Positions 34,073 through 38,490 of a DNA stretch of 64,000 nt are shown here, piece by piece; the stretch's first letter is position 1, and every line of letters starts with the position of its first letter. The stretch is from contig OX639992.1 of the NCBI GenBank assembly GCA_951828515.1, positions 5,248,217 to 5,312,216 of the forward strand. Direction: 5' to 3'. The translations under genes were made by a program, and so were the position numbers. The notes beneath the pieces were generated by a model, which was not told the DNA's origin, did not search any database, and worked only from the letters and a program-made list of their open reading frames with translations. Origin of the DNA: an uncultured Poribacteria bacterium (lineage in GTDB: Bacteria; Poribacteria; WGA-4E; WGA-3G).

Positions 34073-35398
34073 ATGTTAATCAGTTCCACTACCAAAAGGT
34101 TGATGTCTAAAGCGGCATGGCTCGCTTACAATACGTACCGTAAAGGTATCAGTTATCGTTCGCAACTTTCAAAAACAGCGGCGTTACTCAACGCGCCGCG
34201 CGCAGACATCTTAGCATTTCAGAACGAACAATTAGAAAAACTCCTCCGGCACGCATACCACACAACACCTTACTACCGTGAATTGTTCAAGACAGAATCT
34301 CCAGATATTTCACAAATTCCGACACTTGAGAAAAGTAACATTCGTGAACAATTGGAGCGTCTCTGTTCTGAGGCGTTTCCGCAGGAGGAGCGTATAAAGA
34401 ACGCCACGGGTGGCTCAACAGGAGCACCGCTTACCTTCTATCAGGATAGAAATTATTGGAATCAACGCAACTTGAGCGTCTACTGTTTTGATCGGTGGGC
34501 AGGCTGGGATTTTGGGGAACCTCAACTAATTATTTGGGGTGCGCTTGCGGACTTGGAAGGCGATGAACATTGGAAGTATCAGTTGAATAACTTCTGGCGG
34601 AATCACTATTGGCTCAATGGTTTTCATCTTACGGACGCGACAATGCGGACAGCATTTCGACAGATGGATAAATCCCACCCGCAAACAATTCTCGCTTACC
34701 CTTCATCGCTCTACCAATTCGCTGCATATCTTTTTGAAAACAGTTTGGTCCCCAAATGGGATTTAAAAGGGATTATTACTTCTGCGGAGATGCTACATTC
34801 GCACTACCGCTCCTTCGCAGAAAGCGTTTTCGGGACGAAAATTTATAACCGCTATGGGGGGCGAGAGGTCGGATTGATCGCTATGGAATGTATAGCGGGA
34901 CACATGCATATCAACTGCCGCGACCTCTACCTTGAAATAGACAGTCCTGACCCATACACCCAGCCGGGGGACATCCTCATCACACAACTCAATAATTACG
35001 CGATGCCGTTTATTCGGTATCGAATTGGAGACATCGGTCGTCTCTCCGATGAGACGTGTCCATGTGGAAACCAGCTCCCGATTTTGGCGGAACTGCTCGG
35101 ACGTAGTACTGCTACCTTCCGGACGAAAACTGACACATTGATACACGCGGGTTACTTCACACAACAGTTCTACAACGTCATTGGTGTGGACCAGTTCCAA
35201 CTCATCCAAGAAAGCCTTAAACACTGTGTTTTGAAAGTCGTTATTAACACACAGTGGACAGAAACTGCGCGCCGATACATGGTTCAGAAGATTCAAGGTG
35301 CACTCGGTGCTGATGTCATTGTCACGGTAAAACTTGTAGAGGAGATTCCACTTCCTGCTTCAGGCAAACGGGAATTCACAATTTCAAAAGTCTTTTAA
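34073..35398 (+). CDS. CapK/PaaK-like adenylate-forming enzyme
   Basis: 441 residues resembling phenylacetate-CoA ligase/CapK proteins of the AMP-forming superfamily. The P-loop is NATGGSTGAPLTFY (about residue 107) and the acidic-aromatic motif is YNRYGGREVGLIAMEC, with IRYRIGDIGRLSDETCPCGNQLPIL containing the CxCG segment and Asp of the hinge. The last ~90 residues form a small C-terminal domain ending SGKREFTISKVF, which includes the catalytic-loop lysine. Members activate aryl or acyl acids to adenylates and often take part in surface polysaccharide or coenzyme A thioester formation. Substrate is unknown. The gene ends just before a convergent gene. Confidence 0.83.
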   Translation: MLISSTTKRLMSKAAWLAYNTYRKGISYRSQLSKTAALLNAPRADILAFQNEQLEKLLRHAYHTTPYYRELFKTESPDISQIPTLEKSNIREQLERLCSEAFPQEERIKNATGGSTGAPLTFYQDRNYWNQRNLSVYCFDRWAGWDFGEPQLIIWGALADLEGDEHWKYQLNNFWRNHYWLNGFHLTDATMRTAFRQMDKSHPQTILAYPSSLYQFAAYLFENSLVPKWDLKGIITSAEMLHSHYRSFAESVFGTKIYNRYGGREVGLIAMECIAGHMHINCRDLYLEIDSPDPYTQPGDILITQLNNYAMPFIRYRIGDIGRLSDETCPCGNQLPILAELLGRSTATFRTKTDTLIHAGYFTQQFYNVIGVDQFQLIQESLKHCVLKVVINTQWTETARRYMVQKIQGALGADVIVTVKLVEEIPLPASGKREFTISKVF

Positions 35399-35399
35399 T

Positions 35400-37820
35400 T
35401 TATGATAAAAAATTGCAAAGTTCTCGAAGCGGTGCAACCCGTTTTGTCCCACCTGGGACGTAAGATAGAATAAGCCCGTCAATCAATAAATCCGGATTCG
35501 CGATAATGCCTGTACTCTGCTCCGCCGTTACACCTTTGGAAAGTAGTAAGTAGAATGTGTCTTTTGCCCAACCGGGTGTTGTAAAAAAGTTCCCTTGCCC
35601 TTTTGAAATTACGAGGTCTGCTTCCAACAGCGCGTTGAAGAATTCAGGAGTTCCCTGATAGAGATTCGTTCCGATCGTCTGTGCTCCGGACGACATGAGT
35701 CTCACAACACCGTCCTGCACCGCTGTCTGAAGTTCCCGGAATTGCGGTAGGTTTATTATCTCCTGTAAATCTGCTAACGTCGCGTCATTACTGGCGTTGT
35801 CCACCTTCCCAACTATCGTGATACGGTGTCCGCATTCAATGAGGTCTTGAATGAAGGCGACATCGAAAATCACTTCCCCATCGTTGTCAGCAAGCCAAAG
35901 GATTTGCTGAGACTCACCATCAATTACCTTTTCACAGAACACACTATAACAGTCAATAGAAAAATCTGTGTCAACCGCGGCCCGGAGCGATTCAGAGAAA
36001 TAGTCAGGGTTAGCGTTCAGTTTTTTCACAACCCGTTCACTGCTGTAATCGATAATATTGCCCGCGACAACCAATTTCAAACGGGTCAACCAATTGTCTT
36101 TCCAAAACTCAGGGAGGAGTGCGAGTGCAGTTTGCCGTGCTTTCAGTTTATCGTCGTGGTAGGGGTTCGGATTGCCGGTGTGGAGCGTTACCGTCTCAAA
36201 AATACTCCCCCATAATTCTTCAGGTGTGAGGGATTCGATGAGGTAATCGCCAGTGCCGCGTCGAAGATCCAAAAGCGTTTCTACAGCGTTGCACGCGGCT
36301 TGTTGCAATTGCGGGTTACGGGTCGCACGTGGGATCAATTCTGTTGCACTATGGGACTGGACATGTCGGCGGAGGTTCTCCCAATCTGGCAACGCTTTTT
36401 TCTCGCCGAGGGTAAAAACCCCGGGGATGTATTCGTCTGTTACGATCTGCTCGAATAGCGACTTCGGTACCGCTGGTGGGGCTTGCGCTTGCGGAACCCC
36501 GAGTGTCCGATGTGACAAAACGGTGTCAGACGGGATCACCGTTCCGTGTGCCACAACATCTGACAGTTGAACACTTTTCCCGACACTCACCGCATCAAAT
36601 TTGCTGTTTTCAATGGTACTCTGTGTAGCAAGTCCACGAACGGATGCCGCCAACCTTTCAGGTAGCGGACTCGATTCAAAGGTTGTGTCATTTGCGGTAA
36701 CATCCTGCAGCCCGACTGCATCTCCTACCGTTGTCGTGCCCAACAATGTGACGTTTTCAAGCCTGCAATAGTCTCCGACCTGAACCTTTTCTCCGAGATG
36801 CACCCTGCCGAGGAGGTAGCACGCCGTGCCGATTTCAATGTCCTCACTGTCCAACGTTATCTGTGCCGCTGGGTCAACACGAATCCCTTTCCGTGTGAGA
36901 GATTCCCGAGTTTCTGCAAACAGTGCCGCTTCACCCGATAGAACGTTCGACCATCGGTTAACACCTGACAGGACTTCGCCACAGTAGATAAAAGCGTTCG
37001 TCTTCAATCCGTCTTCATAACAGTGCCGGATCAGGTCAACGTGGTGGAGTTCGCCGTTTCGGTTTGTGTGCGGTTGCAACCGATGTATCCGCTCTATCAA
37101 TGCGTTTTTCCGAATCAGGGTGATCCCCGTATTGGTATACGCTTCCCCGCGATGCCACCTATCCCACATCTCCTGTTTTTCCGCTTCCGTCATGTCATAC
37201 CACTCTTTAGTACCCGTGAGTCTGCCGTCTGCATCGAAGAAAAGCCCACCTTTATCTACAACCGTTTCAGGGATCTTGCCACAGAGGGTAACATCCGCTC
37301 CCGAAATGAAGTGGGAGAGCAACGTCTGTGCGAAAATCTCGCGATCCAAAAATGGCTCATCACCGAACGCTACCCCGATCCATTCGGCATCGGACGCTTG
37401 GAGTGCTGGCAACGCCGCTTGCAGCGCGCCACCAGTGCCGTTCATCTCTTCTTGGATACACGGAATAGCATTGGGACCCAGCAGTTGCGAGGGAGGTCCG
37501 TTTTTCTCAAGCATTGATGCCATCTGTGGGTTAATGACGACAATATCGGGACGAGTGCCGGGTAGGTAGCGTCGCGAGCGTTGGAGCGTGTTCTGCGCAC
37601 CGAAGGTGATGTCCAGCGTTTTGCTCAAGCGTCCTGTGGGGTCAATACGGGTGCCTTTACCCGCCGCAAGCACCACCCATTGCGGTATGAGCTCGTTTTC
37701 AAGGCTATCTGTGGGAAGTGTATTAAGAAAAGTTTCGAGGGCAATCGTGTCTGATGAGATCGCCGCGAGTGTATCTTCCAATTCGCAACCGAGGAGGTTT
37801 TCAAGAAAACGTGTTTTCAT
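35400..37820 (-). CDS. Nucleotidyltransferase / beta-helix protein fused to a DUF89 phosphatase
   Basis: 806 residues with three parts. Residues ~45-300: a sugar-nucleotidyltransferase domain (LAAGKGTRIDPTGRLSKTL at 51-69, FGDEP at 152-156 with the metal Asp154, NTGITLI at 230). Residues ~310-430: a left-handed beta-helix-like stretch of hexapeptide repeats, as in GlmU. Residues ~450-806: a DUF89 (ARMT1-like) domain with AGNIIDYS (586-593), LADNDGEVIFD (643-653), DNASNDAT (674-681), SGAQTIGTNL (711-720) and VISKGQGNF (737-745), the signature of metal-dependent damage-control phosphatases. The single chain would make an NDP-sugar or sugar phosphate and hydrolyse a phosphorylated by-product. 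The roles of the parts are inferred. Confidence 0.85.
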   Translation of the reverse strand: MKTRFLENLLGCELEDTLAAISSDTIALETFLNTLPTDSLENELIPQWVVLAAGKGTRIDPTGRLSKTLDITFGAQNTLQRSRRYLPGTRPDIVVINPQMASMLEKNGPPSQLLGPNAIPCIQEEMNGTGGALQAALPALQASDAEWIGVAFGDEPFLDREIFAQTLLSHFISGADVTLCGKIPETVVDKGGLFFDADGRLTGTKEWYDMTEAEKQEMWDRWHRGEAYTNTGITLIRKNALIERIHRLQPHTNRNGELHHVDLIRHCYEDGLKTNAFIYCGEVLSGVNRWSNVLSGEAALFAETRESLTRKGIRVDPAAQITLDSEDIEIGTACYLLGRVHLGEKVQVGDYCRLENVTLLGTTTVGDAVGLQDVTANDTTFESSPLPERLAASVRGLATQSTIENSKFDAVSVGKSVQLSDVVAHGTVIPSDTVLSHRTLGVPQAQAPPAVPKSLFEQIVTDEYIPGVFTLGEKKALPDWENLRRHVQSHSATELIPRATRNPQLQQAACNAVETLLDLRRGTGDYLIESLTPEELWGSIFETVTLHTGNPNPYHDDKLKARQTALALLPEFWKDNWLTRLKLVVAGNIIDYSSERVVKKLNANPDYFSESLRAAVDTDFSIDCYSVFCEKVIDGESQQILWLADNDGEVIFDVAFIQDLIECGHRITIVGKVDNASNDATLADLQEIINLPQFRELQTAVQDGVVRLMSSGAQTIGTNLYQGTPEFFNALLEADLVISKGQGNFFTTPGWAKDTFYLLLSKGVTAEQSTGIIANPDLLIDGLILSYVPGGTKRVAPLRELCNFLS

Positions 37821-38490
37821 TTACTCGTTATCGTCTAATTCGGCTTGGATAGATTGAAACTGCGCTAATGCAGCCTCTAAATTCTCAGTGATTTCCGCGA
37901 CTAATACATCTGGAGCAGGAAGGTCCTCAGCATCCTCAAGTGAATCCTCTTTCAGCCAGAAGATGTCGAGATTGACATGCTCTCGTTCGATCAGTTCATC
38001 GTAACTGAAGGCGCGGAATTGATCGGCTTCAACGCGTGCCTCGCGATTGTCTGGGTTGTAGGCGGTTATAAAATCTTGCAGGTCGGTGTCTTGCATCGGT
38101 GGCTATTGTAATACTGCTCCTGTTCCCGAACGGGGGATTCGTAAGCACTATGTCGTAGCGATCCTTCGTAGGACTTCTGAGACTATCATCGGCTGTAATT
38201 GGGCTCTCTGTCCCACCGATACCGCGCAGGTATAGATTCATCACACAGAGACGGACGACGTTATCAACGATGTCTGTGCCAGCGAAGGTCTTAGATTGGA
38301 GAAACGCCTTCTGTTCTCGATCCATCGTCCTACTGTAATTTTCAGAGATGTAGTCATACACCGCGAGAAAGAAACCACCCGTCCCACAGGCTGGGTCACA
38401 GATGGTTTTCATCGGTTCAGGACGCATTACAGCAACCATAGCCTTAATAAGAGGTCGTGGTGTGAAGTACTGTATTCCGAGGCGGCATAA
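37821..38490 (-). pseudogene. hsdM: Second type I DNA methylase (HsdM), internally deleted
   Basis: Read from 38490 downward, the sequence gives IQYFTPRPLIKAM, the AdoMet motif DPACGTGGFF, and the catalytic NPPF (VLTNPPFGNRSS). Around 38090-38110 the middle of the protein is missing and a new frame continues with the C-terminal part (DLQDFITAYNPDNREARVEADQFRAFSYDELIEREHVNLDIFWLKEDS, 37821-38096). The N-terminus is replaced by the truncated gene at 38490-38577. It belongs to a different HsdM group from the one at 7689-9107. It abuts the DUF89 fusion gene with no gap at all (its stop is next to that gene's start). Confidence 0.82.

Follow-up and report, generated by a model that had tools for sequence, protein, structure and literature searches.

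What is the function of a protein that joins a GlmU-type nucleotidyltransferase to a DUF89 phosphatase in one chain? The question is raised by a gene in a stretch of 64,000 nucleotides (the window) from a member of the Poribacteria, an uncultured, sponge-associated group; the window genome is a single contig of 5.85 Mb. The gene is a single open reading frame with an ATG start and zero internal stops. The first-pass annotation had described an 806-residue chain consisting of a GlmU-like nucleotidyltransferase, a hexapeptide part and a complete DUF89 domain, and this description, coordinates included, was borne out by Pfam, profile and Foldseek searches. The layout is as follows, with catalytic-residue counts taken from an alignment of 52 distinct homologous sequences.

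35400..37820 (-): fusion gene, 806 codons plus stop
37683..37820 (-): residues 1-46, variable helical N-terminal extension (helices in the model; poorly conserved, 17-80% identity)
36921..37682 (-): residues 47-300, GlmU-type nucleotidyltransferase domain (Pfam, NCBIfam and profile matches; best-conserved segment)
37647..37670 (-): residues 51-58, LAAGKGTR, nucleotide-binding loop (G54, G56, R58 and, beyond the loop, K67 invariant where covered)
37359..37364 (-): residues 153-154, GD; D154 (invariant, 52/52) aligns with the metal-binding Asp of GlmU, which we take to be D105 in E. coli
36501..36881 (-): residues 314-440, short degenerate left-handed beta-helix (hexapeptide) segment (weak Hexapep match)
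35412..36383 (-): residues 480-803, complete DUF89/ARMT1-like phosphatase domain (Pfam, profile, structure model, Foldseek)
35874..35888 (-): residues 645-649, DNDGE, first catalytic Asp with its neighbours (DNVGE in PH1575; D645 in 50/52)
35778..35789 (-): residues 678-681, NDAT, second catalytic Asp D679 (NDAT in PH1575; D679 in 51/52)
35589..35603 (-): residues 740-744, KGQGN, DUF89 motif (identical in PH1575; K740 in 50/52)

The same domain order was sought in other genomes and is found across the phylum. By E-value, the fusion is counted in 80 of 85 Poribacteria genomes (55 of the 56 good ones), a tally that includes two genomes outside the class that match solely through stand-alone DUF89 genes and lack the fusion. 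Full-length chains are present in nearly all Poribacteria families, in single copy, and almost every genome of the class has no other DUF89 domain. The one good genome with no fusion match (G073) may represent a gap in the data. Identity decreases to approximately 40% in the deepest families with the frame still open, and no stop separates the parts in relatives, the sole exceptions being fragments at contig ends. The same domain chain across Poribacteria thus marks a true fusion, and an assembly error or a chance joining of two genes, for which we found nothing in favor, is ruled out to the point of being vanishingly improbable by the full-length open chain in independent assemblies, single-contig genomes among them. 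The pattern places the putative fusion event at the base of the class or earlier. When contigs were scanned with short, near-exact peptide patterns of the fusion, the named relatives matched were Candidatus Poribacteria, and the plasmids searched carried separate halves only and no fusion. The first-pass annotation knew of no description of such a fusion, and our search of the accessible literature for DUF89 or COG1578 fused to a nucleotidyltransferase agrees in finding none. This is apparently an undescribed, class-wide fusion of two known families.

The C-terminal half is assigned to DUF89, a family of small-molecule phosphatases known for metabolite damage control, by several types of evidence. 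Pfam places an ARMT1-like/DUF89 domain (PF01937) at residues 539-745 [E = 1.5e-31, 110.2 bits against a gathering cut-off of 25], and a profile of this half matches the DUF89 structures 2g8l, 1xfi and 2ffj. Foldseek aligned PH1575 (2g8l) and AF1104 (2ffj) nearly full length, with TM-scores by target length of 0.72-0.75; GlmU was the next match after these two, and the BeF3-bound fission yeast DUF89 structure 7u1x was also among the fold matches. The AlphaFold2 model has good confidence in the DUF89 part and poor confidence in much of the remainder, with the nucleotidyltransferase and beta-helix part modelled poorly (pLDDT 28-60 for residues 274-340). The fusion shares with PH1575 and AF1104 the whole fold and the DN, second Asp and KGxGN-like motifs, the last present as KGQGN, and its D645 and D679 correspond in the alignment to the Asp pair of PH1575. 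PH1575 and AF1104, however, are single-domain proteins of about 290 residues, whereas in the fusion DUF89 sits behind a nucleotidyltransferase. The cut-off of the damage-control phosphatase equivalog NF040824 was missed (76.5 against 440 bits). Characterised DUF89 domains require two Asp (PMC9352595), and the single-domain DUF89 proteins of yeast and human prefer fructose-1-phosphate (PMC8669784); our literature search found no established substrates of prokaryotic DUF89 phosphatases.

In the N-terminal half, Pfam detects NTP_transf_3 at residues 49-178 (E = 4.8e-8) and, weakly, Hexapep at residues 328-355. Among solved structures, a profile that combines 19 divergent homologues from this half matched GlmU alone at E <= 1e-5 (17/17). 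The fusion and GlmU have in common the nucleotidyltransferase fold, the order of motifs and the beginning of the left-handed beta-helix. The uridyltransferase catalytic residues (loop GxGTR, Lys, Gln, Asp, Glu, Asn, Asn) are present, on an assignment of positions that we presume from GlmU: G54, G56, R58, K67, Q123, D154, G191, E206, N230 and N288 are invariant where covered, and T129, which differs in two deep sequences, is the exception among the positions aligned to the GlmU site. Comparison with close relatives gave dN/dS values of 0.04-0.07 in the nucleotidyltransferase, 0.09-0.15 in the beta-helix and 0.09-0.13 in DUF89, and the predicted catalytic residues of the nucleotidyltransferase are under strong purifying selection. 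Unlike GlmU, the fusion adds N-terminal helices and a C-terminal DUF89 phosphatase, and its beta-helix profile match stops at about GlmU residue 320-360, ahead of the acetyltransferase site, so that the C-terminal acetyltransferase half with its catalytic site is not recognisable by profile match. The fusion also misses the cut-off of the GlmU equivalog TIGR01173 (72.9 against 366.85 bits).

To place this half in metabolism we considered the supply of UDP-GlcNAc, a cell-wall sugar, in the phylum. No GlmU exceeds the curated cut-off in any of the 85 genomes, and MurA, which consumes UDP-GlcNAc, exceeds its cut-off in 78 of them. Archaeal GlmU is over cut-off in none of 14 genomes tested and a UDPGP-type enzyme is present in one of 16; both were rejected as the source in the window genome, where neither is over cut-off, although a 471-aa homologue scoring below it is retained there. 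Because GlmU is missing at this threshold and MurA is nearly universal, the nucleotidyltransferase half is most likely the GlcNAc-1-P uridyltransferase of the phylum. In two genomes (G036 and G038) GlmS is followed by a distinct protein similar to the GlmU acetyltransferase half, and the simplest reading would be that GlmU is split in the class, with acetylation in one protein and uridylylation in the fusion.

Several related genes were observed in passing. Stand-alone beta-helix proteins similar to the GlmU acetyltransferase half lie directly after GlmS at L100 4845-5576 (+) and directly beside GlmS, on the same strand, at L102 5556-6257 (-). An archaeal-GlmU-like nucleotidyltransferase is fused to a GlmM-like mutase in chains of about 850-870 aa (G053 C788:3116-5599; G051 C36:13090-15579). 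GlmS and NagB are distributed in a complementary pattern in the class: families f2 and f4 (and G059) have GlmS over cut-off, and the tested genomes of the other families have NagB over cut-off, for example at G000 C1:3527807-3528556; the suggestion is that NagB in the window's family may run in the biosynthetic direction.

The gene neighborhoods of the fusion point to the UDP-GlcNAc pathway specifically. In the deep families the gene lies in an amino-sugar operon. Family f5 has the order archaeal-type GlmM, YvcK, fusion and NagB (glucosamine-6-phosphate deaminase), and family f7 has GlmM, YvcK, fusion and NagA (N-acetylglucosamine-6-phosphate deacetylase). In each of the seven genomes of f5 and f7 the fusion is immediately preceded by YvcK (7/7), and GlmM precedes YvcK in most. 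Individual operons read GlmM-YvcK-fusion-NagB (L067), YvcK-fusion-NagB (L061), GlmM-YvcK-fusion-NagA (L064) and GlmM-YvcK-fusion (L096, L097), and the scanned examples of all four partners exceed curated cut-offs. Most of family f4 has YvcK followed by GlmS. Genomes across the class carry the fusion, YvcK and an archaeal-type GlmM over cut-off; the two genomes outside the class have none of these three. YvcK/GlmR is known to bind UDP-GlcNAc and to stimulate GlmS (PMC7525490). In the window's own family the fusion does not adjoin GlmM-YvcK; the two are still paired in the window genome, about 0.4 Mb from the fusion.

The neighbors in the window's family, namely a convergent CapK/PaaK-like gene, a sulfatase and a decayed DNA methylase, are conserved at the family level only. 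The CapK-like frame (34073..35398, +) ends 2 bases from the fusion stop, converging on it as the first-pass annotation had noted, but its relevance is not supported: the convergent position is kept only inside the window's family and the gene is absent beside the fusion in deeper families, and we rejected it as a functional partner. The HsdM-like upstream gene was likewise rejected: its occurrence there is confined to the genus, and the window copy is decayed. What is left of it (window 37821-38439, -) is a remnant in two frames of a type I restriction-modification DNA methylase, retaining only residues 207-336 and 444-546 of a relative with a 546-aa open frame (L016 6360-7997). Elsewhere, a low-completeness genome (L068 region, G058 C15:38328-40574) has the GlmM and YvcK that precede the fusion split into several frames, through either sequencing error or decay. 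A conserved gene for a membrane-protein-like product, for which Pfam, NCBIfam and PDB gave no match (L088 10962-11747, -, and relatives), lies directly upstream of the GlmM-YvcK pair and is preceded by a TPR protein in most loci.

From the computed features (the fusion, its conservation, the intact motifs, the operon partners and the lack of a canonical GlmU) we infer both activities and the substrate of the phosphatase. The explanation that we prefer, and which we give about an even chance, is a bifunctional amino-sugar enzyme in which a uridyltransferase is joined to a DUF89 phosphatase whose substrate would be a hexosamine phosphate of the pathway that the uridyltransferase serves. The N-terminal GlmU-type domain would make UDP-GlcNAc from GlcNAc-1-phosphate and UTP as the main uridyltransferase of the class, with acetylation carried out by a separate beta-helix protein. 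The C-terminal DUF89 domain would be a metal-dependent two-aspartate phosphatase hydrolysing a compound such as GlcNAc-1-P, GlcN-6-P or the GlcN(Ac)-1,6-bisphosphate shed by GlmM, and would limit flux or clear a stray intermediate beside the enzyme that uses that intermediate. The first-pass annotation had suggested a clean-up phosphatase for a side product; the domain may have that role, or may restrain a normal intermediate or dispose of pyrophosphate. We propose more tentatively a version in which GlmU was split and re-fused, DUF89 serves as a flux valve or clean-up activity on the same hexosamine phosphate, and YvcK/GlmR is a sensor of UDP-GlcNAc.

The DUF89 half most likely would remove or limit a hexosamine phosphate of the UDP-GlcNAc pathway, as suggested by analogy with PANK4. 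There, a DUF89 domain that sits behind a pantothenate-kinase domain restrains CoA synthesis by removing the phosphate of 4'-phosphopantetheine (PMC9352595); the PanK-DUF89 CoA fusion is also listed in PMC4921024. The similarity is that a DUF89 phosphatase stands behind a biosynthetic domain and, in PANK4, hydrolyses an intermediate of its own pathway. The pathway and the partner domain differ, the N-terminal half of our fusion being of GlmU type and not a pantothenate kinase, and the kinase half of PANK4 is inactive in amniotes, whereas in our fusion conservation is higher in the biosynthetic half. Nucleotidyltransferase-phosphatase fusions of other families, such as CMP-sialate or CMP-KDN synthetases with HAD-type domains, also combine sugar activation and a phosphatase in one chain, but those carry a HAD fold and concern a CMP-ulosonate, and the Poribacteria fusion carries DUF89 and a GlmU-type enzyme.

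The main rival for the function of DUF89 is that of a pyrophosphatase, which would remove the PPi of the uridyltransferase and drive UDP-sugar synthesis forward. PPi is released at each turn of the fused nucleotidyltransferase domain, and fission yeast Duf89, whose structure is among the fold matches above, is described as a phosphatase-pyrophosphatase (PMC11253589). We nevertheless regard this role as unlikely, because two families retain the uridyltransferase without the DUF89 catalytic residues. Both catalytic Asp of DUF89 are kept in all other full-chain families. In these two (represented by G051 and G052) the helical part of DUF89 and most catalytic residues are lost, and the nucleotidyltransferase is intact:

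L062 6960-9035 (-): fusion of G051 with decayed DUF89 (catalytic Asp and KGQGN lost)
L064 3227-5347 (+): fusion of G052 with decayed DUF89 (catalytic Asp and KGQGN lost)

Besides its decayed fusion, G051 carries an intact stand-alone DUF89 gene (L063 4440-5300), and G052 has no separate DUF89 gene. The neighbors of the stand-alone DUF89 genes in the outside-class genomes and G051 gave no sugar-pathway clue beyond one opposite-strand glycosyltransferase. This decay in two early families indicates that DUF89 cannot be essential to the uridyltransferase reaction and that the phosphatase is probably an accessory part; the nucleotidyltransferase, on the same comparison of sequences, is the indispensable half of the fusion. 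An accessory role fits the decay whether DUF89 acts on a hexosamine phosphate or on PPi.

The nucleotidyltransferase scores under all GlmU cut-offs, and the fusion could therefore make another NDP-sugar, such as an amino-deoxy sugar or a heptose, with DUF89 performing an obligatory prior step, for instance the dephosphorylation of a sugar 1,x-bisphosphate. A phosphatase paired with a nucleotidyltransferase mirrors the logic of the ADP-heptose pathway, in which GmhB acts before HldE. We assign this a low probability: the operon partners GlmM, YvcK, NagB and NagA indicate hexosamine and not heptose, and the decay of DUF89 in two families speaks against an obligatory step.

UDP-GlcNAc could also be made by another protein, leaving the fusion as a regulator, sensor or turnover enzyme of the pathway. 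Three Firmicutes have GlmR orthologues that act as GlcNAc-1-P uridyltransferases and yield UDP-GlcNAc (PMC10128056), and the window genome encodes a 471-aa archaeal-GlmU-like protein that is below cut-off and spans both GlmU-like domains. These two candidates, the missed GlmU cut-off, the location of the fusion apart from GlmM-YvcK in the window's family and the decay of DUF89 in two families all count against the bifunctional amino-sugar enzyme. Still, we find it improbable that YvcK/GlmR or the 471-aa protein takes this role, since the nucleotidyltransferase catalytic residues of the fusion are essentially invariant under strong purifying selection, the nucleotide loop of the 471-aa protein is altered to GLGRK, and no full-length match of its type was found in four genomes (G044, G036, G038, G050).

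The class-wide fusion and its hexosamine operon partners reduce the substrate candidates of a prokaryotic DUF89 phosphatase to a handful. If the bifunctional amino-sugar enzyme is correct, it would explain UDP-GlcNAc synthesis in a phylum that has MurA and is without canonical GlmU, and it would provide a bacterial counterpart to PANK4, in which DUF89 limits a biosynthetic pathway from inside a fusion protein.
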